Of a DNA stretch of 64,000 bases, positions 46,122 through 62,474 are shown piece by piece; the first letter of the stretch is position 1, and each line of letters begins with the position of its first letter. A program made the translations under genes and the position numbers. This stretch comes from Cypionkella aquatica (GTDB lineage Bacteria; Pseudomonadota; Alphaproteobacteria; Rhodobacterales; Rhodobacteraceae). The notes beneath the pieces were generated by a model. It worked only from the letters and a program-made list of their open reading frames with translations. It ran no database searches and was not told the DNA's origin. The DNA lies in contig NZ_BSPP01000007.1 in the NCBI RefSeq assembly GCF_030161095.1, positions 372,920-436,919 of the forward strand, read 5' to 3'.

Positions 46122-46277
46122 CCCCGGAGTTTCGAGTGGGGCTGCATTGACTTTCGCAGCTTGGCCCCCATGTTAGGGCCTCGGGCGCGCTGGCCAGATC
46201 AACGGTTCTGATGAGATGGGCCGATCGGGGTTCTGGCGCACAGGATGCGCCGGCTTCAGCCGCCGAAAATTGCAAAT

Positions 46278-46300: not shown

Positions 46301-46318
46301 GTCACCAAAGGACTGCCT

Positions 46319-47551: not shown

Positions 47552-49192
47552 TCAGCGCACGCGGCTCTCGCGCAGAGCGCCCAGCTCTTCCAAAATCGGA
47601 TGCGCGACCGAGGCAAGGTGGGCATTGACGCGCTTGAGGTCGCGCAGAAGATCAAGGTGCAGCGTGCTGGTTTCTATCGTCTCGACGCGGCCTGCGCGGA
47701 CGCGGTTCAGGTGATGTTCGGCAGATTGCGCTTCGATCTTGCGGATGATCACCTTTTGATCCAGCAGGCGGCGGGCCATTTGCGGATCGCGCGACAGAAA
47801 GATCGCCTGCGCCATTTGCAGGTTTTCACGGGTATGGGCGTAGAAATCCTTGATCTCGGCAAGACCCTCGGCCGAGAAACTCAGCTTTTTGCGCGCCTTT
47901 TTCAGGGCAATCTCGGCCAGACCGCTTTCGATGATATCGCCGACATGCTCCAGATTGATCGCATAGGAAATCACCTCATGCGCACGGCGGGAATCGTCTG
48001 GATCAAGCTCTGATCGGCCAAGGCGGGTGACATAAAGCTTGATCGCCTCGTGCAGCTCGTCGACCTCGTTTTCCAGCCGTGCAACATCGGTGCAGGCCAG
48101 CTCGTCCGAGGTGTTCAGCGTCACCAGCGTGCGGTCCAGCATTTCGCCGATGATGTCGCCGACCCGCAGCGTCTCGCGGGCGGCGACAGCAAGCGCCATG
48201 TCGGGGGTGTGCAAAAGGCTGTCATCAAGATAGGCCGGGCCGCCGCGCGTGGGATCAGTGCGATCCGGCATCACGCGTTCCACCAACCGGGCCACCGGGC
48301 CAATCAGCGGCAGGAAAATCACCAGAAGCGCAAGGTTGAAGCCCACATGCGCGCCCACTGTCAGCTGCGCCGGATCAGGCAGCACCTGCTGCAATGCCGC
48401 CGCGAGTGGGACTGCAAAGATCATCACCAAGACCGATCCCAGCATCCGCACGATCATGTTTGACAGCGTCAAGCGCCGTGCGGCGACCCCTTCAGAGGCC
48501 ACCGCCAGATGCGGCGGGATTGCGCCGCCCAGATTGGCCCCGGCGACAAGGCACAGCGCAAGCGGTGGCGCGACCACGCCAGCCCCTGCAAGCAGCATCA
48601 CCAGCACCACCACCGCCAAGCTGGAGGATGCCAGCACGGCAAGCGCCGCCGCCACCAGCACCGCAAACACCGGGGCATTGTCCAGCGCCGACAGCACCGT
48701 GACCACGGTGGGCGACGACCGCAGCGGGGCCGTGATGCCGGACAACAGATGCAGCGCCAGCAGCATCAGCCCCAGCCCCAGCACTGCCCGGCCCAAGTTG
48801 CGCGGCATGTTGGTTTCAGCCGAGGTTGACAGCACCACGCCGACAAATATCAGCACGCTGCCCAGCCAGTGAATGTCCATCGACAGCACCAATGTCACCA
48901 GCGCCGTGCCCAGATTGGCCCCCAGCAACACCGCCTGCGCCATGCGCGGATTGACGATGTCGCGGGCGGTGAATGAGGCGGTGATCACCGCCGTCGCCGT
49001 GCTGGATTGCAACCCCAACGTCACCAGAAAGCCCCAGAACGCCGCATAGACCCGGTTGGTGGTGCCCTTGGCGATCCATTGCCGCAGGACCGCGCCAAAA
49101 GCCCGCAGCACCCCGGTCTTGATCATCCGCAAGCCCCAGATCAGCAGCGAAGCCGCGCCAAGCAGGTCAATCAGCTGTATCGTCGATTCCAA
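47552..49192 (-). CDS. Na/Pi cotransporter family protein with C-terminal PhoU-like domain
   Basis: About 546 residues. Two Na/Pi repeats: LGLQSSTATAVITASF with GANLGTALVT, then LASSSLAVVVLV with GANLGGAIPP; about 8-9 membrane helices to residue 310. A cytoplasmic PhoU-like helical domain follows (ISYAINLEHVGDIIE). YjbB-type relatives in enteric bacteria export phosphate. No ATG fits; I use the TTG at 49192 (GGGGG upstream), so the N-terminus is uncertain. It is divergent from the LacI gene, with a LacI-type operator 57 bases upstream of its start. Role inferred: releasing phosphate freed by the neighbouring phosphatases. Confidence 0.8.
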   Translation of the reverse strand: MESTIQLIDLLGAASLLIWGLRMIKTGVLRAFGAVLRQWIAKGTTNRVYAAFWGFLVTLGLQSSTATAVITASFTARDIVNPRMAQAVLLGANLGTALVTLVLSMDIHWLGSVLIFVGVVLSTSAETNMPRNLGRAVLGLGLMLLALHLLSGITAPLRSSPTVVTVLSALDNAPVFAVLVAAALAVLASSSLAVVVLVMLLAGAGVVAPPLALCLVAGANLGGAIPPHLAVASEGVAARRLTLSNMIVRMLGSVLVMIFAVPLAAALQQVLPDPAQLTVGAHVGFNLALLVIFLPLIGPVARLVERVMPDRTDPTRGGPAYLDDSLLHTPDMALAVAARETLRVGDIIGEMLDRTLVTLNTSDELACTDVARLENEVDELHEAIKLYVTRLGRSELDPDDSRRAHEVISYAINLEHVGDIIESGLAEIALKKARKKLSFSAEGLAEIKDFYAHTRENLQMAQAIFLSRDPQMARRLLDQKVIIRKIEAQSAEHHLNRVRAGRVETIETSTLHLDLLRDLKRVNAHLASVAHPILEELGALRESRVR

Positions 49193-49248
49193 GGTGGCCC
49201 CCGTCGCTGGGCGCGGTATGCGCCTTTTGCAGGGCAGGGTGACAGGTT

Positions 49249-49264
49249 GTGCACATGTGTGCAA
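49249..49264. promoter_or_regulatory. LacI-family operator A (upstream of Na/Pi gene)
   Basis: GTGCACATGTGTGCAA matches TTGCACA-NN-TGTGCAA at 13 of the 14 fixed positions. It is 57 bases upstream of the Na/Pi gene start. A lone half-site TGTGCAA also occurs at 49315-49321. Confidence 0.7.
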
Positions 49265-49424
49265 TATTTGATGCTGGAAACCAGAATGTATTGCAACGCT
49301 GCCGAAGATATAGTTGTGCAAGCGATCGGCCGGGCGCAGATTTTTCCAGTATTTTTAAGGTATACCGCGCAATCAGCGGATTTTGCGGCGGTGCAATCGA
49401 AGTGGTTTTCTTGTTCACACATCT

Positions 49425-49440
49425 GTGCAACACTGCAACA
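49425..49440. promoter_or_regulatory. LacI-family operator B (upstream of lacI-type gene)
   Basis: TCACACATCTGTGCAA matches TTGCACA-NN-TGTGCAA at 12 of 14 fixed positions and ends 17 bases before the regulator's start codon, the place expected for autoregulation. Confidence 0.6.
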
Positions 49441-49457
49441 AGTTGCCTTAACGCCGG

Positions 49458-50480
49458 ATGCCGATCTTGCCCAAGTCGAAATCAAAGCCGCAAAAGGCGC
49501 CGATCAGCGCGCATAAGGTGGCAGAGCTTGCTGGCGTGTCGCGCTCGGCTGTGTCGCGCACCTTTACTGAAGGCGCGAGTGTGTCTGACTCGACGCGGCG
49601 CAAGGTCATGGCTGCGGCGGAAAAGCTGGGCTACCACGTCAACCATCTGGCGCGTGGGCTGATCCAGCATCGGTCGGGGATCGTGTGTCTGATCGTGGCG
49701 GAAATGCAGACGCCCTATCAATCGGCCTTCCTTGAGGCGGTGACACGTCGGTTGCAGGAAATCGGCAAGGTGGTGATGGTGCTGAACACCGCAGGGCTGG
49801 CGGCCAATGTCGAAGCGGCGCTGCGCCAGACGTTGAACTATCGTGCCGATGCCACGGTGGTGGTGTCGGGCAGCCCCTCGGCCTCGTTGATTGAAACCTG
49901 CATTGATAATGGCCAGCGGGTGATCCTGATCAACCGGGATGATCCGATCGTGGGGCCGGAATGTATCATGGTTGGCAATGAAGATGCGGCGCGCGAGGCC
50001 TGTCTGATGTTGCTTCGCGCTGGCTGCACGCGGCTTGCGGTGGTCAGCTCGACCGCGGGGACGCCAAGTGTCACCGCGCGCGAAAATGCCTTTGTCGCGG
50101 CGGCGGCGGCAGAGGGATTTGCTGTCACCGTCAGCCGGGCGGGGCCTACGGGTTATGCGGCGGGCGGCGATAGTGCGCGGCAGCTGCTGGCGGCGTCTTT
50201 GCGGCCTGACGGGGTGTTTTGCGTCACTGATCTTTTGGCGATTGGCTTTATAGATGCGGCGCGGCAGGATTTCCGTCTGTCGATCCCGGATGATCTGTGT
50301 GTGATCGGCTTTGACGATATCGCCGAGGCGGGATGGCTGGGCTATAACCTGACCACATTCCGCCAACCTATTGGCGAGATTGCAGAGTATATCGCAGCGA
50401 TCCTGACCACGGATGAGGTCGCCACCCAGAACAAGAAATTCCCGGTGCAGGTGGTGTGGCGGCGCAGCGTGCGGCCCTAG
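49458..50480 (+). CDS. LacI family transcriptional regulator
   Basis: 340 residues. The N-terminal helix-turn-helix (about residues 17-45) reads ISAHKVAELAGVSRSAVSRTF, i.e. VAELAGVSRSAVSR, followed by the hinge LGYHVNHLARGL that inserts a leucine in the minor groove. The effector domain is a periplasmic-binding fold with GTPSVTARENAFVAA and VIGFDDIAEAGW. LacI proteins bind even palindromes; the TTGCACA-NN-TGTGCAA sites at 49249, 49425, 53621 and 61222 fit. No clear Shine-Dalgarno precedes the ATG. Inferred to control the phosphatase, importer and Na/Pi genes around it; inducer unknown. Confidence 0.92.
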   Translation: MPILPKSKSKPQKAPISAHKVAELAGVSRSAVSRTFTEGASVSDSTRRKVMAAAEKLGYHVNHLARGLIQHRSGIVCLIVAEMQTPYQSAFLEAVTRRLQEIGKVVMVLNTAGLAANVEAALRQTLNYRADATVVVSGSPSASLIETCIDNGQRVILINRDDPIVGPECIMVGNEDAAREACLMLLRAGCTRLAVVSSTAGTPSVTARENAFVAAAAAEGFAVTVSRAGPTGYAAGGDSARQLLAASLRPDGVFCVTDLLAIGFIDAARQDFRLSIPDDLCVIGFDDIAEAGWLGYNLTTFRQPIGEIAEYIAAILTTDEVATQNKKFPVQVVWRRSVRP

Positions 50481-50515
50481 GGGCAGACCGGGCAGTTTTG
50501 GTCAGAGCGCGGTGA

Positions 50516-52099
50516 TCAGAGCGGGGTGATCCGCAGATCGGCCATGTCGATCACGAAATCCCCATTCGGCAGGCGATCCAGATAGGCGCGCATCATCCGC
50601 AACAGCGCCACAAATTGTGCGGCAAGCGGGGTGCCGTCTGACTTTGGCAGCTGAGCGCAGAGCGCGCGGTAGAATGTCAGCCGCTGGGCGGGGATGTAGG
50701 GCAGGGCAAGCGCGCCGCCTTTGCGCAACCGATACCAGTCTTCGGCGAACACCGGCAGCGGCAGGTCTGGCGCGTGCAGCGCCACGCCGATCAGCGCCAG
50801 CAAGTCTGACATCTGATGACCGATCAGAAAAGCTGCCATGTCCTTGGGCCATTCGCGCGCGATGTAGCGGCCTTGCGCGATTGCGCGCAGGTGGTGATCC
50901 ATGAAGGCGCCGTAGGTCTTTGCATCCGTCGCCCGCGCCTGCAGACCTGTGCCCTGCGCCTCGGCGCGGTAGGCTGCAAAGGCTGCGTCATGTCCGGCGG
51001 CTTGGGCCAGCGAGACTGTGCGCAGGCTAATCTGGCCGTGGTCAATCTCGGCCAGTTTCATCGCGGGCGGAAAGCCCACTGGCGACGGCACCGCGATGTT
51101 CAGAAACCGGCTTTGCGTGGTCTGATATAGCGCGGTGTCGTTGACATGCAGATGTCCCGAAAAATGCACAGCGACGCCTGTGGCCGCGAAAGCCTGCGCC
51201 ACCGCTGGACCGGGTGCGCGGCGCGCAAGTCCGGTTGCACCAAACAGCGCCACCTCATCCGCCGAAGCGCCTGCCAGCGGATCAAGCACCGGATAATGCG
51301 AAAATGCGATCAGCTGCTTGCCTGCGGCTTTCGCGCGGGCGGCCACATCGGTCATCCAGCCCAGCAGATGCGCGCGGTGGCGCAGCAGGCTGGGCCAGCC
51401 GCCGTTGCTGGGATCGTGAAACTGCGCGGGATCGCTGAAATCCGTAGCCCCATCGCGCGGCACACAGACATTGGCATCAATCGACAACAGCCAAAGCCCG
51501 GCGACTGGCTCCACCAGATAAGAGGCATCTATCATCGGGCATTGCGTGGCGCCATCGGGGCTGAAGGTTGCATAACTGCGCGCGGCCCAGTCGGGGTTTT
51601 GGCCAAAGGGGGTTTCCCAATGCAGATCATCGGGATCGGGTTGATAGCCCAGCCGCGCCATTTTCTGCAGCGCGGGCAGGGTGCCAAGCGTTGCGGCATC
51701 GGGCGCGGTTGCGCTGTCAACCGCGATGCAGCGGCCATCGGCGGCTATGAAGTTCTTCACCTGAGGCCGCCCGCTTTGCGCAAAGCAGTCGTGATTGCCA
51801 AGCGTCGCAAACACCCGCAGCCCGTGCAGCCTGCGATAATCGGCAAGCAGGGCAACAGCGGCATCAATGTTGGGAGCTTGGCCGTCATCGGTCAGATCGC
51901 CCACCAGAATGGCAAGTTTTGCGCCTGCAGCCACCGCGTGATCCAAAGCCGCGCGAAAGGCTGCGGCGGATTCGTTGAACACGCGGGTGGAGTCTATGCT
52001 GTCTGCAAAGCTGCGGATCGCCCCCGGCAGGCCGCTGTCTTTGGGCACCCAATTGCAATTGTGGAAATGCGGGTCGGCGATGACGGCAAGGCGTATCAT
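50516..52099 (-). CDS. Calcineurin-like metallophosphoesterase
   Basis: 527 residues, no signal peptide, so cytoplasmic. The five metal-binding motifs are all visible: ADPHFH (Asp-x-His), VGDLTDDG (Gly-Asp), TLGNHDC (Gly-Asn-His-Asp), FSHYP and SGHLHVND. About 190 C-terminal residues beyond the catalytic domain are helical and not recognised. It should hydrolyse phosphomono- or diesters with two metal ions. Third gene of the phosphatase operon downstream of operator C. The substrate is probably the product of the AfuABC-like importer or an intermediate left by the other phosphatases. Confidence 0.88.
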   Translation of the reverse strand: MIRLAVIADPHFHNCNWVPKDSGLPGAIRSFADSIDSTRVFNESAAAFRAALDHAVAAGAKLAILVGDLTDDGQAPNIDAAVALLADYRRLHGLRVFATLGNHDCFAQSGRPQVKNFIAADGRCIAVDSATAPDAATLGTLPALQKMARLGYQPDPDDLHWETPFGQNPDWAARSYATFSPDGATQCPMIDASYLVEPVAGLWLLSIDANVCVPRDGATDFSDPAQFHDPSNGGWPSLLRHRAHLLGWMTDVAARAKAAGKQLIAFSHYPVLDPLAGASADEVALFGATGLARRAPGPAVAQAFAATGVAVHFSGHLHVNDTALYQTTQSRFLNIAVPSPVGFPPAMKLAEIDHGQISLRTVSLAQAAGHDAAFAAYRAEAQGTGLQARATDAKTYGAFMDHHLRAIAQGRYIAREWPKDMAAFLIGHQMSDLLALIGVALHAPDLPLPVFAEDWYRLRKGGALALPYIPAQRLTFYRALCAQLPKSDGTPLAAQFVALLRMMRAYLDRLPNGDFVIDMADLRITPL

Positions 52100-52102
52100 C
52101 GC

Positions 52103-52726
52103 TTAGGGCTTGGCGCTGCGGGCGATGTCGGCATCAATCAACGCAACCCAATGCGCGGTGCGCTCGGCTGCGGCGATCAGCATGGGCTTTGGCGTCTCGT
52201 GCCATTCCTCAGGCTGCAGGGCGCGCTGGGTGCGCACATGGTCGATGGCTGCGGACAGGCTTGGAAACTCTTGCGGCAGATGCACATGCAGAAAAAGCGC
52301 CACCAAGGCCACAGAGCGCGAGCGGCCCGCCCGGCAGTTTACCAAAAGGTTGCCGCGTTCGCGCCGGGGATAGCTGGGCTTTTCGGGCAGGATCTGATCC
52401 AGCGCGCCGCGCAGCTGGAAAAAGCCCGCCAGCATCATCGTGTCAGGATTGCCCGGCCCATCGACGATGCCCAGCTTGTAATAGCGGATCAGCGCGGGGC
52501 CATAGCCGACCGAGTCGTGCGAGACTTCATCCGGGGTGGCGACATAGTTGAAATCCAGGTTCACCGCGCAATTCAGCACGGTAGAGATGCCATGCGCGCG
52601 CAACAACGGGATGTCAGAGGCCCCCTCGCGCCCGCCGACATAAAGATCGACGCCGTAGCCGGGCAGGTTTTCGTAAACCTTGCTGATCGTCGGGCGGTCA
52701 AAGCGGGGGGAGGGTTTTTCGGTCAT
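52103..52726 (-). CDS. Dual-specificity/PTP-like phosphatase
   Basis: 207 residues with a cysteine phosphatase P-loop C131-R-A-G-R-S-R137 (LLVNCRAGRSRSVALVAL). The residue before the Cys is Asn in place of the usual His. A candidate general acid lies in KLGIVDGPGN (Asp89). Such small CX5R enzymes act on phosphoproteins, but also on phosphoinositides and inositol polyphosphates (PTP-like phytases). With two IMPase-like enzymes and a metallophosphoesterase in the same operon a small-molecule substrate is more likely than protein. It overlaps the IMPase gene by 4 bases. Confidence 0.82.
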   Translation of the reverse strand: MTEKPSPRFDRPTISKVYENLPGYGVDLYVGGREGASDIPLLRAHGISTVLNCAVNLDFNYVATPDEVSHDSVGYGPALIRYYKLGIVDGPGNPDTMMLAGFFQLRGALDQILPEKPSYPRRERGNLLVNCRAGRSRSVALVALFLHVHLPQEFPSLSAAIDHVRTQRALQPEEWHETPKPMLIAAAERTAHWVALIDADIARSAKP

Positions 52727-53577
52727 GCGGTCCTCAGGGTGGTAAGGGTCGGCTGGTTTGGGGTGGCCAGAATATCGGCTTGGGTCAAAAGGGCGATGCC
52801 GGTGGCGGCGGACAGTGCGGCCGCCACAGCGGGCGAGGCTGCCAGCACCGGCGCGCCGTCAAGCAAACCGCCCAGCGACAGGAACGGGCCGGTGACGCCG
52901 CCCGCCTCGCGCACCAGCAGCAGGCCCGCCAGACAATCCCATGAATTCATGTGCAATTCGGCGTAACCGTCGGTGCGCCCATCCGCCACATAGGCCAATG
53001 CCATCGCCCCCGACGCGCTGCGCCGCACGTTGCTGCCCGCTTCAAACAGGGCGGTCAGCGCCTGAATATAGCGCGCCAGCGGCACGCGGTTTGACCAGCC
53101 AAGCTCGAACGAGGTGGCGTTCAGATCGGTGGTCGGGGAGACCCTTAAACTTTGGCCATTGCGGGTGGCACCACGGCCTTTGCGGGCAAAGTAAAGCTCT
53201 TGGGTTGCGGGGTTCAGGATTGCGCCCAGTTGCACCTCGCCATTGGCAACAAAGGCGATAGAGATGCAAAAATGCGGGATGGCGCGGGCGAAATTCGCGG
53301 TGCCATCAATCGGGTCCACCACCCAAGCGACATCCCCCGGCGTGCCGCCGGTTTCCTCGCCGAGAAAGCCGTCTTGCGGAAAGGCCGTGGCGATGCGGTT
53401 GCGGATATGCTGTTCAACGGCACCATCGGTTTCGGTCAGATAGTCTTGCGGGCCCTTCATGCCGATCGGCTGGCCTGCCTGCCGCTCAAACCCCGCCAAA
53501 GCCAGAATTGCCGCGCTGCGTGCCAGATCAAGGCAGAAGGCCTCGCGCTGGTCGATGGCCAAATCATCAAGGATCAT
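52723..53577 (-). CDS. Inositol monophosphatase family protein
   Basis: 284 residues, Mg-dependent phosphatase fold. Metal-site motifs: FLGEETGG (Glu), VDPIDGTANF (Asp-x-x-Asp-Gly-Thr) and WDCLAGLLLVREAGG (Asp). It removes phosphate from inositol phosphates, sugar phosphates or PAP-like compounds. The start at 53577 is preferred because GGAAACACC lies upstream and the longer frame would run into operator C. First gene of the three-gene phosphatase transcript. Paralogue of 53693-54562. Confidence 0.92.
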   Translation of the reverse strand: MILDDLAIDQREAFCLDLARSAAILALAGFERQAGQPIGMKGPQDYLTETDGAVEQHIRNRIATAFPQDGFLGEETGGTPGDVAWVVDPIDGTANFARAIPHFCISIAFVANGEVQLGAILNPATQELYFARKGRGATRNGQSLRVSPTTDLNATSFELGWSNRVPLARYIQALTALFEAGSNVRRSASGAMALAYVADGRTDGYAELHMNSWDCLAGLLLVREAGGVTGPFLSLGGLLDGAPVLAASPAVAAALSAATGIALLTQADILATPNQPTLTTLRTA

Positions 53578-53620
53578 CGGGTGTTTCCTGTGGTGTTGGT
53601 CGAAGTGTTCCCATGGGTAA

Positions 53621-53657
53621 TTGCACATGTGTGCATTGGCTTCAACTCTGATTTATA
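53621..53657 (-). promoter_or_regulatory. LacI-family operator C with a -10-like element, phosphatase operon promoter
   Basis: TTGCACATGTGTGCAT (53621-53636) matches TTGCACA-NN-TGTGCAA at 13 of 14 positions, 44 bases upstream of the IMPase start. Reading on the minus strand, TATAAA (53657-53652) lies 15 bases before it, so the operator would sit at about +5 to +25, a classical steric-block position. The -35 is weak. Confidence 0.65.
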
Positions 53658-53692
53658 TGGGTAATTAATGCTGTTTTTCATCTGAATCCAGA

Positions 53693-54562
53693 TCATGATG
53701 CACGCGCGTTCTGTGGCGCTTCTTTTGCCGTGCGCGCGACAGTCCGCCCTGCCGAGATTTCAGCGGCGATGCTGCGCAAAACCGGATACTGCGCGCCTGC
53801 CCCAAGGGCTATATAGCCCGGATGCAGGTGGGGTGGGGCGTCTTCGGCCACTTTGCCAAGGCTGTAGGGGTGATAGCTGCCGCCCGCGTGCTGCAAGATC
53901 GCAATTGCGGCGGTGACATCCCATGGGTTGACGCCAAAACCCGCCGCCGCATCGACCCAACCCGCCGCAACATGCGCAATCGACAGCGCCGCACTGCCCG
54001 GACGCCGCACTGTGGCGAAGGTTTCAGTCAGCCGTCCAAAGCGCTGCAAGGCCAGCGTCTGACCATCAAGGCGAAAGTCCCGTGTCACCGGATAGCCGGT
54101 GATCAGAACGGCATGGGCCTCGTCGGGTTCGGCCCGCGACTGCATGGGTTTGCCGTTCAGAAATGCCCCCGCTGCCGATCCGGTGAACATGTTATCGGCG
54201 ACAGGATCGAAGATTGCACCGGCGACGACCTTATCGCCGATCATCACCCCGACCGAGACGCACCAGAACGCCAGCCCGCGCGCGAAGTTTGAGGTGCCGT
54301 CGATCGGATCGACAAACCAGCGCACCGGGCCGGTGCCCACACTGCCGCCTTCCTCGCCCATGAAGGTGGAATCGGGCACTTCACGGAAGATAAAGTCGCG
54401 GATGGCCGCTTCGGCGGCGCGGTCATGTTCGGTGACGGGATCGTGGCGATCCACTTTGAAGTCGATCTGCATTTGCGACCGAAAGGCTGTCAGCAGGGCA
54501 GGGCCAACCAAACGGCAGGCGGCTTCGGCAGTGGCAGCGATATGGCGGTGGGCATCGGTCAT
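53693..54562 (-). CDS. Inositol monophosphatase family protein
   Basis: 289 residues. Motifs FMGEEGGS (Glu), VDPIDGTSNF and NPWDVTAAIAILQHAGG give the complete IMPase two-metal site. It is more distantly related to the neighbouring IMPase than a recent duplicate would be. It lies downstream of the three binding-protein genes and a strong hairpin, so it is the last gene of the importer transcript rather than the first of the phosphatase transcript. This physically links the importer to phosphate-ester hydrolysis. Confidence 0.92.
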   Translation of the reverse strand: MTDAHRHIAATAEAACRLVGPALLTAFRSQMQIDFKVDRHDPVTEHDRAAEAAIRDFIFREVPDSTFMGEEGGSVGTGPVRWFVDPIDGTSNFARGLAFWCVSVGVMIGDKVVAGAIFDPVADNMFTGSAAGAFLNGKPMQSRAEPDEAHAVLITGYPVTRDFRLDGQTLALQRFGRLTETFATVRRPGSAALSIAHVAAGWVDAAAGFGVNPWDVTAAIAILQHAGGSYHPYSLGKVAEDAPPHLHPGYIALGAGAQYPVLRSIAAEISAGRTVARTAKEAPQNARAS

Positions 54563-54602
54563 CTGGGGTTCCAGCGCATGAACGGGGTCAATGATTGAAA
54601 CG

Positions 54603-54629
54603 GGGGGGCGGTTTGGAGAGCCGCCCCCC
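54603..54629 (-). other. Hairpin between binding-protein and IMPase genes
   Basis: GGGGGGCGG (54603-54611) pairs with CCGCCCCCC (54621-54629), a perfect 9-bp GC stem with a 9-base loop; on the minus strand it is followed by a short TTT. It may attenuate transcription into the IMPase gene. Confidence 0.6.
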
Positions 54630-54641
54630 GCATGGCAGGGG

Positions 54642-55739
54642 CTAGCGCTTGTGGTTCAGCTGCCAGAAGTCCTGCCAATCCTGTCGGGTTTCCCAATCTT
54701 GCAGACCGGTCGAGGCGTCATAGGCAAACAGATCGCCGATATGCGCCGCAAGCCCCGAAGGCTCGTCAGCGGGCAGGGTGATCTTGCTGCTGGTGGGGAT
54801 CTTGCCATCCAGCATCTGCGGCATGATGCCTTCTTCGGTCAGCACATAGTGGATGAACAGCCGCGCGGCATTCGGGCTGTCGGTGCCTTTGGCGATCAGG
54901 CCAAGTTTGGTATAGGTCCAGCCCAGCCACGGGTCCAAACCGGTGCAAAGCCCCAACTTGTAGCCTTTGTCGGCGTTGTCGCGGAACTTGGCGGAACTGA
55001 CGAGGCCCATGAACGGCTCTGCCTGTCCGGCGGCCCCGACGGCTTCGGAGATGCGGTCATCGCCATCTGCCATCAGGGGGGCATTGGCGGCAAGTGCGGC
55101 AAGCCAAGCGGCGGCGGGGCTGGCCTGATCGGTTTCCAGCGGCTTGCCGTATTGCGCCTGATAGGCGGCGGCAATCTTGTCACCGCCATGCAGCGCCATC
55201 TGGTTGAACCAATCGGTATAGGTGCCCTTGGTCAAAGGGTCGATCAAGGCGACCTTGCCCTTCCATTCAGGCTCGGTCAGCTGCCAGATGTTTTGCACCG
55301 GGCAGGCGGGATATTTCTCGGTGTTATAAACCCAGACGTTGGCATTGGTCGAAATCGCCAGTGGATTTCGATAGCCTTCGGGAATATCGGCCTCGATATC
55401 GGCAGGCACCCAGCTTTCCAGAATATCGGTCGGCAACAATTGTGCCATCGCAGCTGGGGTATCGGTCAGCAGAGCAACATCGCCTTGTACATTTCCGGCC
55501 TGAGATTCGCGGATCAGCATTTCCAGCTGGCTGTTGGCCGAGACCTTTTCGCCGGTCGCCTGCAGCCCATATTTCGCGCTGAATGCGTCAGCCATATCGA
55601 CGATCTTGCCGGTGCTGTCATAGATGGTGATCGGCGGTTCGGTCTTGGCGGCGGCGATCAGCGCGTCAAGATCAAAGCTTTGCGCCTGTGCGGTCGTGGC
55701 GAGCAAAATCCCCAAGGGGACGAGCATTTTGGGGGTCAT
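54642..55739 (-). CDS. Fe/AfuA-type periplasmic binding protein, copy 1
   Basis: 365 residues with a signal peptide (MTPKMLVPLGILLATTAQAQ). Family-1 binding protein of the AfuA/FbpA type: DLDALIAAAKTEPPITIYDSTGKI, NVWVYNTEKYP, YTDWFNQM, SSAKFRDN, KGTDSPNAARLFIHY, and the ending TRQDWQDFWQLN. AfuABC in pasteurellaceae binds hexose phosphates rather than iron, which fits the phosphatases here. The start at 55739 has AAAGGA upstream. One of three tandem paralogues (with 55756-56856 and 56929-58050). Confidence 0.88.
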   Translation of the reverse strand: MTPKMLVPLGILLATTAQAQSFDLDALIAAAKTEPPITIYDSTGKIVDMADAFSAKYGLQATGEKVSANSQLEMLIRESQAGNVQGDVALLTDTPAAMAQLLPTDILESWVPADIEADIPEGYRNPLAISTNANVWVYNTEKYPACPVQNIWQLTEPEWKGKVALIDPLTKGTYTDWFNQMALHGGDKIAAAYQAQYGKPLETDQASPAAAWLAALAANAPLMADGDDRISEAVGAAGQAEPFMGLVSSAKFRDNADKGYKLGLCTGLDPWLGWTYTKLGLIAKGTDSPNAARLFIHYVLTEEGIMPQMLDGKIPTSSKITLPADEPSGLAAHIGDLFAYDASTGLQDWETRQDWQDFWQLNHKR

Positions 55740-55755
55740 ATTGCGAGTCCTTTGT

Positions 55756-56856
55756 TCATTTTGCATAGTTCAAACGCCAGAAATCTTGCCAATCCTGGCG
55801 CGTGTCCCAATCTTCCAGCCCCGATGCCGGGTTGTAGGCCAAAAGCTCGGCGGTATGCGCGGCGATGCCTGACGGTTCATCTGCGGGCAGGCTGACTTTG
55901 GTGTTCAGCGAGATCTTGCCATCCTCGGCCTGCGGCGCGATGCCTTCGGCGGTCATGGCGTAGTGAATGAACAGCTTGGCTGCATTCGGGCTGTCGGTGC
56001 CTTTGACGATCAGCCCGACGGTTGCATTGGTAAAGCCGATGAACGGATCAACGCCCGCGCATAACCCCAAGGTAAAGCCCGCGCCAGCATTGTCGCGGAA
56101 CTTGGCGGCGCTGACGAGGCCTACGAAGGGTTCGGTTTGCCCGGGTGCGGCCACGGCCTCTGCCGCCGCTGCATCGGCATCGGTCAACAGCGGACCATTG
56201 GCGGCGAGCGCTGCCACAAAAGCCTCGGTCGCGCTGGCTTTGTCGGTTTCAAGGGCTTTGCCGTAGTGGGACTGGTAGGCGGCGCGGATCTTGTCATCGC
56301 TGTAGCTGCGCATCTGGTTGAACCAATCCGTATAGGATGGCTTGCCAAGCGGGTCTTGCATCGCGACCTTGCCCTTCCAATCGGGGTCGGTCAGTTGCCA
56401 GATGTTGGTGATCGGGCAGGTCTCGAAAAGTTTGGTGTTATAGGCCAGCACATTCGGGCTTGCGACCACCAGCAGCGGGTTTTGGGCCTCGGGCGCGATG
56501 TCGGCGGCAAGATCCGGCGGCACCCAGCTTTCGGCAAAACCACCCGGCAGCAATTGCCCCATCGCCGCAGGCACATCCGCGATCAGCGAGACATCGCCCT
56601 GCACATTGCCCGCCTGCACTTCGCGGATGATGGTTTCCATCTGCGCGGGCGCTTTGGTCTTGGTGCCAGTGGCGGCGATGCCGTATTTCGCGGTAAAGCC
56701 TTCGGCCATATCAGCAATCTTGCCCGTGCTGTCGAAAACCGTGATCGGCGGTTCGGTCTTGGCTGCGGCGATCAGCGCGTTCAGATCAAAATCTTCGGCA
56801 GATGCGGTGGTGGTCAGGGCCAACAAAATTGCCACCGATGTCGTCAGATGTTTCAT
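55756..56856 (-). CDS. Fe/AfuA-type periplasmic binding protein, copy 2
   Basis: 366 residues with signal peptide MKHLTTSVAILLALTTTASA. It shares with copy 1 the blocks DFDLNALIAAAKTEPPIT, ESWVPPDL, NVLAYNTK, YTDWFNQM, SAAKFRDN, KGTDSPNAAKLFIHY, LPADEPSGIAAH and DTRQDWQDFWRLN. Clearly a duplicate of copy 1 with changes spread through the ligand-facing regions, for example FIGFTNATVG in place of WLGWTYTKLG. GGGAGGAAG precedes the start. Lies 16 bases before copy 1. Confidence 0.88.
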   Translation of the reverse strand: MKHLTTSVAILLALTTTASAEDFDLNALIAAAKTEPPITVFDSTGKIADMAEGFTAKYGIAATGTKTKAPAQMETIIREVQAGNVQGDVSLIADVPAAMGQLLPGGFAESWVPPDLAADIAPEAQNPLLVVASPNVLAYNTKLFETCPITNIWQLTDPDWKGKVAMQDPLGKPSYTDWFNQMRSYSDDKIRAAYQSHYGKALETDKASATEAFVAALAANGPLLTDADAAAAEAVAAPGQTEPFVGLVSAAKFRDNAGAGFTLGLCAGVDPFIGFTNATVGLIVKGTDSPNAAKLFIHYAMTAEGIAPQAEDGKISLNTKVSLPADEPSGIAAHTAELLAYNPASGLEDWDTRQDWQDFWRLNYAK

Positions 56857-56886
56857 TGCTTCCTCCCAGTGGTCGCGGGGTGTGAG

Positions 56887-56920
56887 CCTGCGCGCAGCCC
56901 TCCTCAGATCGGCGCGCAGG
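56887..56920 (-). other. Hairpin between binding-protein copies 3 and 2
   Basis: CCTGCGCGC (56887-56895) and GCGCGCAGG (56912-56920) form a perfect 9-bp stem with a 16-base loop in the 72-base gap between the two binding-protein genes. Probably an mRNA-stability or attenuation element. Confidence 0.5.
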
Positions 56921-56928
56921 TTGGGTAT

Positions 56929-58050
56929 TCAGCGCAGGTTGGTGCGCCACAGATCTTGCCAGTCTTGCCGGCGGTCCAGATCGCTTTGCGCCCCGGCATT
57001 GGTCCAGACCATCAGCTGATCCAGATGCGCCGCGATGCCGGATGCCTCATCTGCGGGCAGGCCGACGCGCGGGTCAGACGGCACTTTGCCATCCACGCTT
57101 TGGGGCGCGATGCCTTCGGCTGTCAGCAGATAGCTGATGAACAGCTTGGCGGTGTTCGGGCTGGCGGTGCCTTTTGCAATCACGCCAAGGCCGGGATAGA
57201 GCCAGCCGCTGAACGGCGCGACATTGGCGCAGAAGCCCAGCTTGTGGCCTTTGTCGACATTGTCACGGAACTTGGCAGTGGACAGGATGCCAAAGAACGG
57301 GCTGGTCTGACCAGCCGCGCCAATCGCATCGGACACACCAGAGGAATCGGCGATCAGCACGCCATTTGCGGCAAAAGCCTTGACCCAAGCCTGCGTGGCC
57401 GAGCCTTCGGCGCTGTCAAACGGCTTGCCATAATGCGCCTCATAAGCGGCGGCCATGGCTGGGTCGTGATGCTCTTCCAGCTGGTTGAACCAATCGGCAT
57501 AGGCGGGCTTTTCCAGCGGATCCATCATGCTGACGCGCGATTTCCATTCTGGATCAACCAGTTGCCAGACGTTAGAGATCGGGCAGGCCGCGTAGGCTTC
57601 GGTGTTATAGCTCCAGACCATCGGGTCGCTGACCACCACAAGCGGATCGCGCGCGCTGGCGGCAAGCTGATCTGCCACATCGGGCGGCACCCAGCTTTCG
57701 ACGATGCCTTCGGGGATCAGCTGCGCCGCGATCGTGGCGGCGTCAGCGGCCAGCGACACACCACCGACCACGTTGTTTGCCTGAGCTTCGCGGATCAAAA
57801 GCTCGATCTGTCCGGCTTCGTTCACCTTCTTGCCAGTAACCGACAGCCCATATTTGGCGCTGAAAGCCTCGGCGGTGTCGACGATCTTGCCGGTCACCGC
57901 ATAGGCGGTCATCGGGGGTTCGGCTTTGGCCGCGGCCAGCAATTCGGCCTCGGTTTGGGGCCCGGTCTGTGTTTCGGCCCCGGTCTGAGTTTGGGCGTGA
58001 CCTGTGGTTGCTGCCAACAGACCGATCATTGCCATCGTTACGCGTTTCAT
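56929..58050 (-). CDS. Fe/AfuA-type periplasmic binding protein, copy 3
   Basis: 373 residues, signal peptide ending near GHAQ. It has an extra low-complexity segment (QTQTGAETQTGPQTE, Gln/Thr/Gly/Glu repeats) between the leader and the conserved ELLAAAKAEPPMTAYAVTGKI. Shared blocks: ESWVPPDV, MVWSYNTEAYAACPISNVWQL, YADWFNQL, STAKFRDN and DRRQDWQDLWRTNLR. It is the most diverged of the three. GGAGGGAT precedes the start. First of the binding-protein genes after the ATPase. Confidence 0.88.
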   Translation of the reverse strand: MKRVTMAMIGLLAATTGHAQTQTGAETQTGPQTEAELLAAAKAEPPMTAYAVTGKIVDTAEAFSAKYGLSVTGKKVNEAGQIELLIREAQANNVVGGVSLAADAATIAAQLIPEGIVESWVPPDVADQLAASARDPLVVVSDPMVWSYNTEAYAACPISNVWQLVDPEWKSRVSMMDPLEKPAYADWFNQLEEHHDPAMAAAYEAHYGKPFDSAEGSATQAWVKAFAANGVLIADSSGVSDAIGAAGQTSPFFGILSTAKFRDNVDKGHKLGFCANVAPFSGWLYPGLGVIAKGTASPNTAKLFISYLLTAEGIAPQSVDGKVPSDPRVGLPADEASGIAAHLDQLMVWTNAGAQSDLDRRQDWQDLWRTNLR

Positions 58051-58085
58051 TAATCCCTCCTGTTCATTGATTTCTGCGGCACGGG

Positions 58086-59213
58086 TTAGGCGACCCGGGC
58101 CAGTGCATCATCGACCCCGGCCAACCGGTTCTGATGGCTGTCGAACACATGCAAGGCTGCGGGGCGCGCGTGCAGCGTGACGATCTCGCCGCCCTGCAAG
58201 GTCGGGCTTTCGGTGGTGGTCAGAAAGATCACCCGCCCTGCGCAATTCACCTCGATGATCCAGCTACCACCGGTGGGCAGAACTGCGGTGACGCTGGCGC
58301 CGTGCCGGAAATGGCCCGGTGGTACGGGCGCATCGTCCAGGGCCAGCATCAACGCCTCTGGCCTGATCCCGACCGAGCCAAGATCGGCCGCAGCACCAAG
58401 CCGGGCGCGCAGGTAGTCGCGGGCGGCGCGTTCCAGCGGATCACTGCCAGACGCTGCCAGCTCGATGATATTGATGGGTGGGCTGCCGACAAATTCGGCG
58501 ACAAAGCGGTTGGCGGGGCGTTCGTAGATGTCGTTTGGGGTGCCGCGCTGTTGCAGGGTGCCTTCGTTCATCACGGCGATTGTGGTGGCTAGGGTCATCG
58601 CCTCCCACTGATCATGGGTCACGAAAACGATGGTGGTTTTGAAAGCGGCGTGGATGCGTTTCAGCTCGGCGCGCATTTCCAGACGCAGGCGGGCATCAAG
58701 GTTCGACAGCGGCTCGTCGAGCAACAGCACACCGGGGTTGACCGCCAGCATCCGCGCCAAGGCCACCCGTTGCTGCTGCCCTCCTGACAGTTGCGAGGGA
58801 TAGCGGTCGCGGTATTTCTCGATGTCGAGCGCCTTCATCACGGTGTTGACGCGGGACTCACGTTCGGCCTTGGGCACTTTGCGCAGGCGCAGACCGAAAT
58901 CGGTGTTGCGCTCGATCGTCAGATGCGGCCAGAGCGCGTAGGATTGAAACACCAGCCCCATGCCGCGCTTTTCCGGGCCCACAAAGATGCCCTGCGGGAT
59001 CGAATCCACCACGCGACCACCGACCGAAATTTCGCCGCCTGACAGGTTTTCAAGCCCGGCGATCATCCGCAATGTGGTGGTTTTGCCGCAGCCCGATGGC
59101 CCCAGCAGGCACATGAATTCGCCATCCCCGATGTGCAAATCCAAATCGGCAACCGCATTGGGCGAGCCTGCGCCATAGTTTTTCTGAACGTTCCGCAGAA
59201 TGATATCAGGCAT
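58086..59213 (-). CDS. Fe/AfuC-type ABC importer ATPase
   Basis: 375 residues, MalK/FbpC class. Walker A GPSGCGKTT, signature QLSGGQQQRVALARML, Walker B VLLLDEPLSNLDARLR, switch VTHDQWEAMTLA. The C-terminal TOBE-like domain carries GSVGIRPEALML. The start at 59213 shares one base with the permease stop (TGATG); a longer frame into the permease gene is a shadow. It powers the 12-helix permease. Precedes the three binding-protein genes. Confidence 0.92.
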   Translation of the reverse strand: MPDIILRNVQKNYGAGSPNAVADLDLHIGDGEFMCLLGPSGCGKTTTLRMIAGLENLSGGEISVGGRVVDSIPQGIFVGPEKRGMGLVFQSYALWPHLTIERNTDFGLRLRKVPKAERESRVNTVMKALDIEKYRDRYPSQLSGGQQQRVALARMLAVNPGVLLLDEPLSNLDARLRLEMRAELKRIHAAFKTTIVFVTHDQWEAMTLATTIAVMNEGTLQQRGTPNDIYERPANRFVAEFVGSPPINIIELAASGSDPLERAARDYLRARLGAAADLGSVGIRPEALMLALDDAPVPPGHFRHGASVTAVLPTGGSWIIEVNCAGRVIFLTTTESPTLQGGEIVTLHARPAALHVFDSHQNRLAGVDDALARVA

Positions 59214-61039
59214 CAGCTTCCAAGTCCTTCGGCCAGATTTGTCTTGGTGAGTTTCTGCGCGGTCAGCGTGCCGACATAGGCCAGCCCCGCGATGATCAGC
59301 ACGACCGCATTGGCCGCCTGGGTGTAGTGGTAATCGACCAGCCGCAGCGAGAACGTGGTCAATACGTCTGTCGCAGGCACAGCCAGGATCACAAACAGGC
59401 TTAAACCTTTGATGCCAGAGATAAACGGCAGCAAGATACCGGTGACAAGCGATCCTTTCTGGATCGGAATAACCACCCATGTCATCCGCCGCAGCCAACC
59501 AGCGCCAACCACTTGTGCTGCTTCTTCGGGGTCTTTGCCCAGCTGCATCATCGCCGATATCCCCGCGCGTGAGGCATAGGGCATCTGATCGGCCATCAGC
59601 GCCAGAATAAGGATCGCATAGGTGCCATACAAGGCGGGAACCGGGCCGCGCTGCACCGCAAACAGCGACAGATAGGCGGCGGCAAAGGCAATCCCCGGCA
59701 CAAGGTAGGGCATGAACGTCACCTGCCGCAAAAAGACTGACAGCGGCCGATAGGGTGAGCGCACGACGATATAGCCGGTCAGAATCCCCAGCAGCCCTGA
59801 GCAGATCGACGCCGATCCGACAATCCAGATCGTGTTGAACGCGGCGCGCCACAGATCGGGGCTGAACAGGATACCCGTGCGCATGGCGACAGTTGGCAGA
59901 TCCCAGCCGATCCAGTAATCCAGCGTGAAATTGGACCATGCAAAATTCGCAGGCATCCGCATCACGGTGGACAGGAACAGCGTCAGGATCGGCATTGCCA
60001 CGCTTGCGGCAAAGATCAATCCGGCAAACCCGGTGGCAGGCAGCCGCCAGCCCTTCAGCCGCGAGGCGCGGTTCATCGAGCCTTTGGAGCCCACGGTGAC
60101 AAAGCGCCGTGCCTCACGGGCAAGATAAGCATCGACCAGAATGGCAATCACCCCGATCAGCATGATCGCGCCTGCCAGCACCCCTGCGACCCCGGTTTGC
60201 CGCGAGCCGATCGAGCGGTAGAGCGAGGTTGCCAGCACGTCGAATTTCACCGGCAGGCCCAACACATAGGGCACGCCAAATTCGCCCAGACATTTTGCGA
60301 AAATCAGCACCACCGCCGACATCAGCGCCGGACGCATCAGGGGCAAGATCACCTGCCGCGCCACGGTGGCACCCGAGGCGCCAAGAATTCGGGCTGAATC
60401 TTCTAGCTGGCTGTCAAACCGCCGCAGCGCCGAACCAAAGAGCAAGATGACGAAGGGCGTGTAATGCAGTGCAAGGATGACGGTGATCGGGAATTGGCCA
60501 TAGGCCAGCCAATCGGGGGGTGTCAGGCCGATGGCCTCAAACCAGCCTTGCTGGCCGCCGACGGTGCGGTTCTTGAACAGCGTCGTCCAGGCCAAGGCAA
60601 AGGTCCAGGCGGGCAGCATGTAAGGCACGATCAACGCCGTCGCAAACCAGCGGCGGCCGAACATGTCGGTGCGCGCGATCAGCCAGCCGAGGATGCCGCC
60701 CACCACCATCGAGATGGCAATAGCGCCACCTGCCACCATCAGCGTGTTGCGCAGCGGCACCCAGAACAAATCGCGCGCCACCGCCGAGGTGAATGTGCGC
60801 GTCAAATAATACAGGGTGACGCTGCCAAGCTCGGCCTTGGTGCGGCGGTCATCGCCAAATTGCACGGTGGCGGAATCCATCAGGATCGACAGGATCGGCA
60901 CCACGATCAGATAGGCGAACAGCAGAGCCATCAGCACGCCGATCACCGTCGTAGGCTCTCGCAGCGTGAGACGCATCTGGTAGCGCAGGCGATTGCGCCA
61001 TGATGGCGCCGCAGCTGTCGTGATGGGCGGCGCGCTCAT
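59213..61039 (-). CDS. Fused Fe/AfuB-type ABC permease (two permease units in one chain)
   Basis: 608 residues with about 12 membrane helices; two BPD_transp_1 units. EAA-type loops: LEDSARILGASGATVARQVILPL near residue 235 (short form ARILGASGATVARQV) and PEEAAQVVGAGWLRRMTWVVIP near residue 500. It is the SfuB/AfuB arrangement used by Fe3+ and hexose-phosphate importers. The start at 61039 has GAGG 11 bases upstream; the extra 48 codons upstream are not protein-like. First gene of the importer operon; operator D is 183 bases upstream, giving a long leader. Confidence 0.9.
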   Translation of the reverse strand: MSAPPITTAAAPSWRNRLRYQMRLTLREPTTVIGVLMALLFAYLIVVPILSILMDSATVQFGDDRRTKAELGSVTLYYLTRTFTSAVARDLFWVPLRNTLMVAGGAIAISMVVGGILGWLIARTDMFGRRWFATALIVPYMLPAWTFALAWTTLFKNRTVGGQQGWFEAIGLTPPDWLAYGQFPITVILALHYTPFVILLFGSALRRFDSQLEDSARILGASGATVARQVILPLMRPALMSAVVLIFAKCLGEFGVPYVLGLPVKFDVLATSLYRSIGSRQTGVAGVLAGAIMLIGVIAILVDAYLAREARRFVTVGSKGSMNRASRLKGWRLPATGFAGLIFAASVAMPILTLFLSTVMRMPANFAWSNFTLDYWIGWDLPTVAMRTGILFSPDLWRAAFNTIWIVGSASICSGLLGILTGYIVVRSPYRPLSVFLRQVTFMPYLVPGIAFAAAYLSLFAVQRGPVPALYGTYAILILALMADQMPYASRAGISAMMQLGKDPEEAAQVVGAGWLRRMTWVVIPIQKGSLVTGILLPFISGIKGLSLFVILAVPATDVLTTFSLRLVDYHYTQAANAVVLIIAGLAYVGTLTAQKLTKTNLAEGLGS

Positions 61040-61423
61040 GCCCGGGCCTCTGGCCGTGACAGCGCAACCGGCCCGTAGCCAGTGATCAGCATAGTATCGT
61101 TCCCTCCACGGTGGCGGTCTGGGTTGCCCCAATGCGCCGTGACAGCCCTCCTTAGCCACCACGGCAATCCGCCGAACTGACATTAGGATTCACCAAAAGG
61201 CGAATTGGTGTCAACAGAAAATTGCACAGCTGTGCAAGGTTGAAATTATAGATAAATTTCATGATATTACATAGTAATTGTCACTCATGTAAGTCAGATA
61301 CAAGCACGCGCGTGCATCGGGGTATTTCGCCATTTCATCCTTGCGGACGATTCTTGCGCTGATCGGTAAACCAATCCAGCGCCGCCCAAGATTTTGACGC
61401 GGTGCAGGGCAGATCAGGTCAAT
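61040..61423. other. 384-bp gap upstream of the importer operon
   Basis: Contains operator D (61222-61237), an AT-rich tract at about 61245-61285 suitable for a promoter, and a leader of about 180 bases before the permease start with no convincing gene. A weak inverted repeat GCGCTG...CAGCGC (about 61356-61382) near the LysR end may help terminate the LysR transcript. Confidence 0.5.
61222..61237. promoter_or_regulatory. LacI-family operator D, perfect palindrome
   Basis: TTGCACAGCTGTGCAA is a perfect 16-base palindrome of TTGCACA-NN-TGTGCAA. It is next to an AT-rich tract in the promoter gap of the AfuABC-like importer operon. It is the best match of the four sites. Confidence 0.8.
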
Positions 61424-62362
61424 CTATGCGCCCAAGGCTGGCTCTAACAGGCGTCCGCGCATGCGATGTTGGGTCAGCAATTCGCCGATATGAGCGCGAA
61501 ACAGGTCTTTGACGGCCTTTGCAGACAGCGACAGTTCGGAGTGTTCGTGCCAGACGAACGACAGCGTGCGCTCGATCACGGGGTTGACGATGCGCGTCGC
61601 GCTCAGCAGGCCGGCTTCGATTTCGACGGCGAAGGCTGAATAGGGCACCACGGTGAAGGCGGGTCCATTCATCACAATGCTGCGGAATACCGAAAGCGAG
61701 TCCTGTTCGATGGCGATGTTGATGCGGTTGCCGGTGCGAAGTGCTGTGTTTTCCAACTCGATCCGCAACTGATTGTGACGGCTGCCCATCACAAGCGGGA
61801 AATTCTTTAGCGCGGCAAAATCAATCTCGTCGCCGATGTGATCTGGCCGATGGCGCCCGACAAGGTGCAAATCCTGCGCCAGAACCGGTTCGGACGTGGC
61901 ACCCACAAGGGTCGAGACATTGGGCAGCAGCCCGAAATCGACCTGCCGCGAGGTGACGAGCGTATCGCTTTCCATCCGCAAAAGGTCGAGAATCGTCAGG
62001 CGAATCTGCGGATGCTGTTGGGCGGTGCGCCAATAAAGCTGCCCGGCAAGCATCGCCGCCGCCGACGCCGCCAGCACAACGCGGACCTCGCCGGTCAGAC
62101 TGGTTGCGGCATTGACGGTTTCTTCGCGCACCTGTTCGACGTGACGAAACAGTGAAACCGCGCCGTCATACAGCCGCTGTCCGGCCTCTGTCAGCACCAC
62201 ACCTTTGCGGGAGCGTTCAAACAGCTGCACGCCAAGCTCTTGTTCCAGCGTGCGAATATGGGCCGAGAACGCGGGCTGGGCCAGATGCACGATCCGTGCC
62301 GCCGCCGAGATAGAGCCGCTTTGGCTGGCCGCGATGAAGTATTTCAGCTGATCGAGGCGCAT
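61424..62362 (-). CDS. LysR family transcriptional regulator
   Basis: 312 residues. N-terminal winged HTH MRLDQLKYFIAASQSGSISAAARIVHLAQPAFSAHIRTLEQELGVQLFER; key part AARIVHLAQPAFSAHIRTLE. The effector domain follows. It is divergent from the uroporphyrinogen-decarboxylase-like gene, the standard LysR arrangement. LysR proteins usually need a pathway intermediate as co-inducer; here likely a substrate of the URO-D-like enzyme or of the TTT importer downstream. Confidence 0.92.
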   Translation of the reverse strand: MRLDQLKYFIAASQSGSISAAARIVHLAQPAFSAHIRTLEQELGVQLFERSRKGVVLTEAGQRLYDGAVSLFRHVEQVREETVNAATSLTGEVRVVLAASAAAMLAGQLYWRTAQQHPQIRLTILDLLRMESDTLVTSRQVDFGLLPNVSTLVGATSEPVLAQDLHLVGRHRPDHIGDEIDFAALKNFPLVMGSRHNQLRIELENTALRTGNRINIAIEQDSLSVFRSIVMNGPAFTVVPYSAFAVEIEAGLLSATRIVNPVIERTLSFVWHEHSELSLSAKAVKDLFRAHIGELLTQHRMRGRLLEPALGA

Positions 62363-62370
62363 GGGTTTTC

Positions 62371-62397
62371 TATCGTAGTTTGCGATAAGACATATCG
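62371..62397. promoter_or_regulatory. Candidate LysR-binding site
   Basis: TATCG (62371-62375) is inverted as CGATA (62383-62387) and repeated as TATCG (62393-62397), starting 9 bases upstream of the LysR start. ATCG-N7-CGAT resembles the interrupted-dyad recognition sites of LysR regulators. Confidence 0.5.
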
Positions 62398-62474
62398 TGA
62401 AGTACTATTTTTCAGATAACAACCCCCTCGCTACAACCAAGTCACAGCCCTGTTACACGAGCGAAAGACTTCGG

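Follow-up and report, generated by a model that had tools for sequence, protein, structure and literature searches.

What does a bacterium do with an ABC importer, four hydrolases and a phosphate transporter that stand together beside one LacI-family regulator? The question is raised by a stretch of 64,000 nucleotides from Cypionkella aquatica (contig NZ_BSPP01000007.1 of assembly GCF_030161095.1), here called the window, in which such a cluster occupies 47.55-61.24 kb. Reading from 61.2 kb along the minus strand, we find genes for a permease and an ATPase (the stop of the first and the start of the second share one base), three periplasmic binding proteins, two proteins of the inositol monophosphatase (IMPase) family, a phosphatase with a CX5R loop, and a metallophosphoesterase; lacI lies on the plus strand, divergent from a Na/Pi-PhoU gene. 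A first-pass annotation, made from the sequence alone, had proposed a LacI-controlled regulon that imports a phosphorylated compound, dephosphorylates it in the cytoplasm, and exports phosphate. Pfam and NCBIfam profile matches recovered at 47.55-61.24 kb every gene that it had named, and the coordinate at which it ended the cluster, 61237, is the final base of a LacI-type operator (61222-61237). Our answer to the question is that these genes almost certainly form one LacI regulon sharing a predicted operator, and that this regulon likely serves organophosphate import, cytoplasmic hydrolysis, and phosphate export.

The operator, TTGCACAnnTGTGCAA, was derived from palindromes in promoter regions. 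In the window it appears before the permease, IMPase-1, Na/Pi, and lacI genes (Table 1), and across the 4.04-Mb genome just three places come within one mismatch of it, all of them in the cluster. The regulator has a helix-turn-helix and a sugar-binding-like domain, and the palindrome precedes both the regulator and its putative target genes, which is the arrangement of a LacI-family regulon.

Many relatives keep this operator. Here, the comparison set consists of 72 sequences that surround the CX5R gene: 67 loci of a species-level collection, four further genome stretches, and the window. They hold 27, 57 and 92 sites at up to zero, one and two mismatches. Sixty permuted half-sites in the same 72 sequences, a control that excludes the Sinorhizobium meliloti stretch L079, gave on average 0, 0.12 and 2.7 sites, and at most 0, 2 and 24. 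All 92 sites fall within upstream windows of cluster genes, which make up 8.4% of the bases, and sites at up to two mismatches are present in 43 of the 72 sequences. L079 has three of its own, two before IMPase-1 and one between LacI and the permease. Whole genomes of 20 relatives contain 57 places with at most one mismatch, against three for the reversed control: 50 in the cluster, three before an off-contig Na/Pi gene, one before a sister cluster with importer, GDPD and IMPase genes, and three unexplained. Thus, the shared operator, found at four window positions and kept in many relatives, bears out the single LacI-controlled regulon of the first-pass annotation.

At one off-cluster place (L116:4921, or G204:C14:81920), a gene for a 577-residue protein of no assigned role has a perfect operator some 320 bp upstream of it. 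A three-mismatch site at window position 46270, about 50 bp before an N-ethylmaleimide-reductase-type gene, was taken as chance, and a relaxed pattern, TGCNCANNTGNGCA, proved too loose in 16 genomes.

The gene set itself is not a chance assembly, because the same genes recur around the CX5R gene across the 72 sequences: LacI in 70, an IMPase in 70, a binding protein in 70, a permease in 69, Na/Pi in 48, and the metallophosphoesterase in 38. These counts come from flanks of at most about 10 kb, which cut off some genes, and the ATPase is outside them. The annotation had suggested a search for the same set in other Rhodobacteraceae. In that family at large it is rare, the CX5R gene being matched in 5 of 198 genomes, a count that includes the window's own; the search in relatives succeeded elsewhere, most of the set recurring in about 70 loci that are mainly of Rhizobiales, so that nodule bacteria share it with some aquatic relatives. 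By record title, six of the 67 species-level loci with the CX5R protein belong to Rhodobacterales and the rest to Rhizobiales. The window's CX5R protein is 83% identical to one from Gemmobacter, 77-81% to several from Devosia, Paracoccus and Shinella, and 49-59% to its counterparts in the four remaining genomes of the family with a match. These identities, read without a tree, point to transfer between orders.

S. meliloti 1021 carries the set on pSymB (L079, 160563-197156), with two binding proteins and a second CX5R copy, and several loci titled Agrobacterium contain the cluster as well. In L079 it lies about 9 kb from open reading frames that we take to be formaldehyde-dehydrogenase and XoxF-type genes. 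Four Klebsiella plasmid records contain a CX5R relative. Some copies of the cluster have guests. A HAD-family hydrolase gene stands between the binding-protein gene and IMPase-2 in five loci (L028, L034, L044, L075, L078; at about 7-8 kb), the domain scan covering the one in L028, and in L024, L026 and L028 the interval from LacI to AfuA contains, judged by eye, a Nudix-like reading frame (at about 13.4-14.1 kb).

What, then, might such a regulon do? We propose that the LacI repressor acts through one operator on three or four transcription units: the importer with IMPase-2; IMPase-1 with the CX5R phosphatase and the metallophosphoesterase; Na/Pi-PhoU; and lacI. The FbpA-class ABC importer, with its three binding proteins, would bring an organophosphate in intact. 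The imported compound would most likely be a phosphodiester or a phospho-polyol, a candidate being a glycerophosphodiester such as glycerophosphoinositol; these are favored because of the fold of the metallophosphoesterase and because of the sister cluster with its GDPD and IMPase. The metallophosphoesterase would split the diester, and the CX5R and IMPase enzymes would strip off the monoester phosphates that are left. The resulting polyol or sugar would enter metabolism as a carbon source, while surplus phosphate would exit via the Na/Pi-PhoU protein. Induction would probably be by the compound that is taken up or by a product of its partial hydrolysis. Worded in this way, with the diester named only as most likely, the proposal as a whole seems to us moderately probable.

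The metallophosphoesterase carries the metal motifs DxH, GD, GNHD, H and GHxH, which are the motif set of the calcineurin-like phosphodiesterase class GpdQ/Rv0805/Lmo2642. In an alignment of 24 of the 34 sequences listed, D68, N102, H103, H268, H316 and H318 are invariant, and D9 and H11 nearly so. Its structural model (pLDDT 94.7) has Lmo2642 as its top fold match (E 1.7e-16), followed by SMPDL3B, a dimetal phosphatase, GpdQ, and acid sphingomyelinase, and then by Rv0805, Mre11, LpxH, and purple acid phosphatases. Phosphodiesterases and nucleases dominate among the 50 matches listed; Lmo2642 itself we take to be a phosphodiesterase.

The other three hydrolases are phosphatases by family. The CX5R loop reads C-R-[AG]-G-R-S-R in all 21 sequences aligned (of 73 rows), with C131, R137 and D89 invariant; D89 would be the general acid. 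The loop is, we presume, reminiscent of PTPMT1-type lipid phosphatases. Both IMPase proteins, placed by PF00459 over its cut-off and by the family motifs DPIDGT and WD (read by eye), have inositol monophosphatases and SuhB as their best matches, in a family of broad specificity. Inspected by eye, the N-termini of the four hydrolases are without signal peptides, as the annotation had said, while the three binding proteins have them. Of its "four phosphatases", three stand; the fourth is, from its metal motifs and fold matches, an enzyme of phosphodiesterase-type fold. The comparisons support a set of cytoplasmic hydrolases, one of them of this fold, and the pairing of phosphodiesterase with IMPase recurs under the same operator.

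This recurrence is found in the sister cluster. In Devosia faecipullorum (L151), the off-cluster site lies between a LacI gene, whose product is 56% identical to that of the window, and an importer, which is followed by a GDPD (PF03009, 1.5e-11) and an IMPase (PF00459, 2e-51). At E<=1e-40, the GDPD is found in 12 of 199 genomes of that species' order, its own included, and regions from 10 of the 11 further genomes were read (all but G255). Importer, GDPD and IMPase occur together in seven of the ten. Three of these seven (L165-L167) keep the LacI gene, and in each of the three a pair of operator-like sites separates LacI from the binding protein, the better site having zero or one mismatch; one region without a nearby LacI has a perfect site before its binding-protein gene. 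The IMPase gene is on the opposite strand in L168, L169, L171 and L173, and the complete set is not present in L170, L172 and L174. Thus, the sister cluster (L151, L165-L167) resembles that of the window in its LacI (L151), its operator, its ABC importer, and its phosphodiesterase with IMPase. It differs in having a GDPD in place of the metallophosphoesterase, another type of binding protein, and two separate permeases. The CX5R, metallophosphoesterase and Na/Pi proteins have no match in L165-L174; L151 was read as a list of open reading frames.

The importer should, of course, say something about the ligand. Binding protein 2 gave a model (pLDDT 93.6) with the FbpA/MctA/FutA/AfuA fold; its matches include HitA, FutA and FbpA, and it was compared at the level of fold with the FbpABC class, in which a pair of tyrosines ligates iron. 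Naming a ligand from the fold failed, because many FbpA-class structures match at 14-20% identity (50 matches listed).

Could the importer simply carry Fe3+ or a metal-citrate complex, with the phosphatases as unrelated passengers? The top fold matches of binding protein 2 are indeed ferric- and metal-citrate-binding proteins. The importer and the phosphatases nevertheless share operators and stay together in relatives, and Lys252 and Arg254, at or beside the place of AfuA H205/D206, are invariant in all 36 binding proteins aligned (the three window copies and 33 representatives of 167 matches). We find such a metal importer barely credible.

The annotation had cited AfuABC-type importers, which can carry hexose phosphates, in favor of a phosphorylated ligand. 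In AfuA, according to the excerpts available of PMC4546632, H205, D206 and E229 coordinate the sugar. By hhalign, at low per-column confidence, these align with Ala251, Lys252 and Phe272 of binding protein 2; a second alignment, in another register, again gave no matching E. Ala251 shares the invariance of Lys252 and Arg254, position 272 is F in 20 sequences, W in 14 and I in 2, and one of the 36 has an HD dipeptide in this region, outside the aligned columns. Thus, at this low alignment confidence, the three residues are absent from the aligned places of the window's binding proteins. The hexose-phosphate specificity by analogy with AfuA was dropped because its sugar residues are not conserved, and ligand binding as in AfuA is not predicted for these proteins. 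With their invariant Lys and Arg, they would be suited to a ligand that is anionic.

In 13 of the 72 sequences (L017, L018, L024, L025, L026, L028, L029, L034, L044, L069, L072, L074, L078), a gene for an AfuA-like binding protein, with a permease, adjoins LacI or the cluster edge. The AfuA-like fragment of L017 matches AfuA itself (PDB 4r72) at 6e-55, and the seven reading frames aligned of these 13 all keep H, D and E.

This brings up the possibility that the imported compounds are phosphomonoesters (hexose or inositol phosphates), the metallophosphoesterase being another phosphatase or acting on a side product. Three of the four hydrolases belong to monoesterase families, the fourth has phosphatases among its fold matches, and the seven aligned AfuA-like neighbors keep their sugar residues. 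Further, in a test of inositol by co-occurrence, iolE is over its cut-off in 4 of 5 genomes that hold the cluster versus 66 of 193 others (p=0.054, weak). Against phosphomonoesters stand Lmo2642 (presumably a phosphodiesterase) and the majority of the fold matches, which are phosphodiesterases or nucleases; the GDPD under the same operator in the sister cluster; and window binding proteins whose low-confidence alignment lacks the AfuA residues. We judge phosphomonoesters to be unlikely. That a phosphodiester is the main substrate we regard, from these comparisons, as an even call.

The Na/Pi gene is tied to the regulon by the operator, which also precedes copies of this gene on contigs other than that of the cluster. 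In two Aminobacter genomes and a Mesorhizobium metagenome-assembled genome (G204, G209, G207), the stretch fetched around the cluster is without a Na/Pi gene, and each genome has elsewhere, next to a gene that by eye is dnaG-like, a Na/Pi-PhoU gene preceded by the operator. Twenty of the 24 sequences lacking Na/Pi were followed (all but L037, L042, L067 and L076), and 30 of 39 Na/Pi matches were read, including seven of the ten lower-identity Aminobacter copies. Ten copies, from 10 of these 20 genomes, are preceded by a site at up to two mismatches, 31-134 bp from where the match starts. Among ten copies at least 76% identical to the Aminobacter one, eight (7 of 7 from Aminobacter, 1 of 3 from Mesorhizobium; L128 and L129 are without) have such a site 100-134 bp upstream. 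None of the seven Aminobacter paralogues read has an operator site, and 3000 pieces drawn at random from within Na/Pi genes gave no match to the operator at up to three mismatches. The Aminobacter copies probably represent one evolutionary event; copies in Devosia (L132) and in an unclassified member of the Rhizobiales (L139) also carry the site, and these look like separate cases.

By Pfam, the window's protein has the Na_Pi_cotrans repeat and the PhoU domain of the NptA/YjbB type, and YjbB exports phosphate. The family is named for import, of course, and the Pfam and NCBIfam models are blind to direction. Hence one might suppose phosphorus scavenging, where phosphate would come in through the Na/Pi protein and phosphate esters inside the cell would be recycled by the hydrolases; the ATPase and permease do score best against glycerol-phosphate and phosphonate models, below the cut-offs. 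Contrary to this, the genes are linked by a LacI-type operator and not by a known Pho element, no PhoB-box search having been made. Scavenging seems to us very unlikely.

Several facts weigh against the proposal of organophosphate import, hydrolysis and phosphate export under one operator. Its support consists of sequence and model comparisons. The window's genome has 21 two-mismatch places, of which one is the lacI site and 20 are outside the cluster, versus one for the reversed control; seven of the 20 (L087-L091, L093, L094) gave no convincing target. Twenty-nine of the 72 sequences have no site at up to two mismatches. These are mainly of Agrobacterium/Rhizobium types, whose LacI shows some 40% identity, plus L008-L011, and a variant, TGCnCACGTGnGCA, was found in only one of the 29 (L056). 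In the sister regions, LacI is kept in only three of ten, and six of ten are without a site within three mismatches. The metallophosphoesterase is 8-16% identical to its 50 fold matches listed, phosphatases among them, and ferric- and citrate-binding proteins rank above the glucose-6-phosphate-binding one for binding protein 2. Finally, in 10 of the 20 genomes followed, no Na/Pi copy examined has a site at up to two mismatches, one of them (G039) having no Na/Pi match at all.

Are there precedents? Ugp/UgpQ is a system of glycerophosphodiester uptake, in which import is followed by cytoplasmic cleavage of the diester. The window's cluster would work in the same order, and its ATPase scores best against UgpC, below cut-off; it differs in having no GDPD, and in binding proteins and a permease of other families. 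The agrocinopine acc system of Agrobacterium has an importer (AccA), a phosphodiesterase (AccF), a phosphatase (AccG), and AccR (PMC4526662, in excerpt). As described there, an intact phosphodiester enters by ABC import, a phosphodiesterase and then a phosphatase act in the cytoplasm, and a repressor answers to the phosphorylated product, much as we suggest here. In the window, by contrast, the candidate phosphodiesterase is calcineurin-like, and three further genes are added, for a CX5R phosphatase, a second IMPase-family protein, and a Na/Pi transporter. An importer, a phosphodiesterase and a phosphatase, by predicted activity, do stand here in one regulated cluster, which we liken to acc by description rather than file as a member. 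In our analysis, then, the cluster would work like acc and Ugp/UgpQ; membership in either is not claimed. With AfuABC (PMC4546632, in excerpt; PDB 4r72-4r75) it shares the general fold class of the binding protein and the ABC layout, but AfuA H205, D206 and E229 align with Ala, Lys, and Phe/Trp/Ile.

The literature searched contains no paper on this gene set and reports no function for the cluster, and a co-regulated Na/Pi transporter and CX5R phosphatase were not found described in it. The word "phosphatase" occurs zero times in the main text, as available, of the AfuA paper (PMC4546632), and is absent from that of a LacI regulon survey (PMC4052901). The locus tags SMb20150-SMb20160 have one mention in the text available, in PMC4414408, where the ABC operon SMb20155-8 was up-regulated in an EcpR1 experiment. 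From gene order, the plasmid record being without annotation, we infer that SMb20155-8 belongs to the S. meliloti copy of this cluster.

Table 1. Features of the cluster, in window positions, with the evidence for each
Feature	Position	Strand	Evidence
Na/Pi-PhoU transporter	47552..49192	-	PF02690 Na_Pi_cotrans 5.2e-38, PF01895 PhoU 2.1e-16, NF037997 over cut-off
Operator, 1 mismatch, Na/Pi promoter	49249..49264	no strand	motif search
Operator, 2 mismatches, LacI promoter (putative autoregulation)	49415..49430	no strand	motif search
LacI-family regulator	49458..50480	+	Pfam LacI helix-turn-helix 1e-11, Peripla_BP_3 8.5e-22, over cut-off
Metallophosphoesterase, phosphodiesterase-type fold	50516..52099	-	Pfam Metallophos 8e-10, metal motifs, model fold matches
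CX5R dual-specificity-type phosphatase	52103..52726	-	DSPc 4.9e-7, 30.1 bits, below Pfam curated cut-off 33.5
IMPase-family phosphatase 1	52723..53577	-	PF00459 7e-55; closest solved relatives inositol monophosphatases/SuhB
Internal operator, 1 mismatch, before IMPase-1/CX5R/metallophosphoesterase	53621..53636	no strand	motif search
IMPase-family phosphatase 2	53693..54562	-	PF00459 3e-49
Periplasmic binding protein 1	54642..55766	-	SBP_bac_11 1.5e-13; binding-protein alignment
Periplasmic binding protein 2	55756..56856	-	SBP_bac_11 6e-11; model pLDDT 93.6; FbpA/MctA/AfuA-type fold
Periplasmic binding protein 3	56929..58050	-	SBP_bac_11 5e-10
ABC ATPase	58086..59213	-	UgpC-like 355.7 bits (cut-off 432); PhnT2-like 321.6 bits (cut-off 457.7)
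Two-domain ABC permease	59213..61039	-	best PhnU2 131 bits, far under cut-off 593
Operator, perfect palindrome TTGCACAGCTGTGCAA, importer promoter	61222..61237	no strand	motif search

Two starts in Table 1 were chosen by eye: a likely TTG at 49192 for Na/Pi-PhoU, picked against the S. meliloti homologue, and the ATG at 53577 for IMPase-1, whose listed reading frame starts at 53628, within the operator. On one flank of the cluster (window 61424-63497), a LysR regulator is divergent from a uroporphyrinogen-decarboxylase/MtaA-like gene, with no operator at up to three mismatches between the two. On the other (43796-47398) lie a binding-protein gene, a fuconolactonase-like amidohydrolase and the N-ethylmaleimide-reductase-type gene, none of which scored, at the thresholds used, in any of the 71 remaining sequences. 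The 64-kb window holds no tRNA and no RNA family at gathering score.

What would such a regulon mean for the organisms that carry it? One fuller picture, which we hold tentatively and at a little short of even, is of a regulon for phosphoesters as carbon source, in which a LacI repressor would coordinate the uptake of an intact plant- or alga-derived phosphodiester, its complete dephosphorylation by four cytoplasmic hydrolases, and a waste-phosphate exporter. In this picture, rhizobia and relatives living on such a diet would release phosphate into their surroundings. The operator allows the regulon to be tested directly, also in a laboratory strain. If the proposal is true, a function would be at hand for a cluster that S. 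meliloti 1021 shares with several loci titled Agrobacterium. A phosphate exporter would be co-regulated with organophosphate catabolism, which would bear on the cycling of phosphate around roots and algae.

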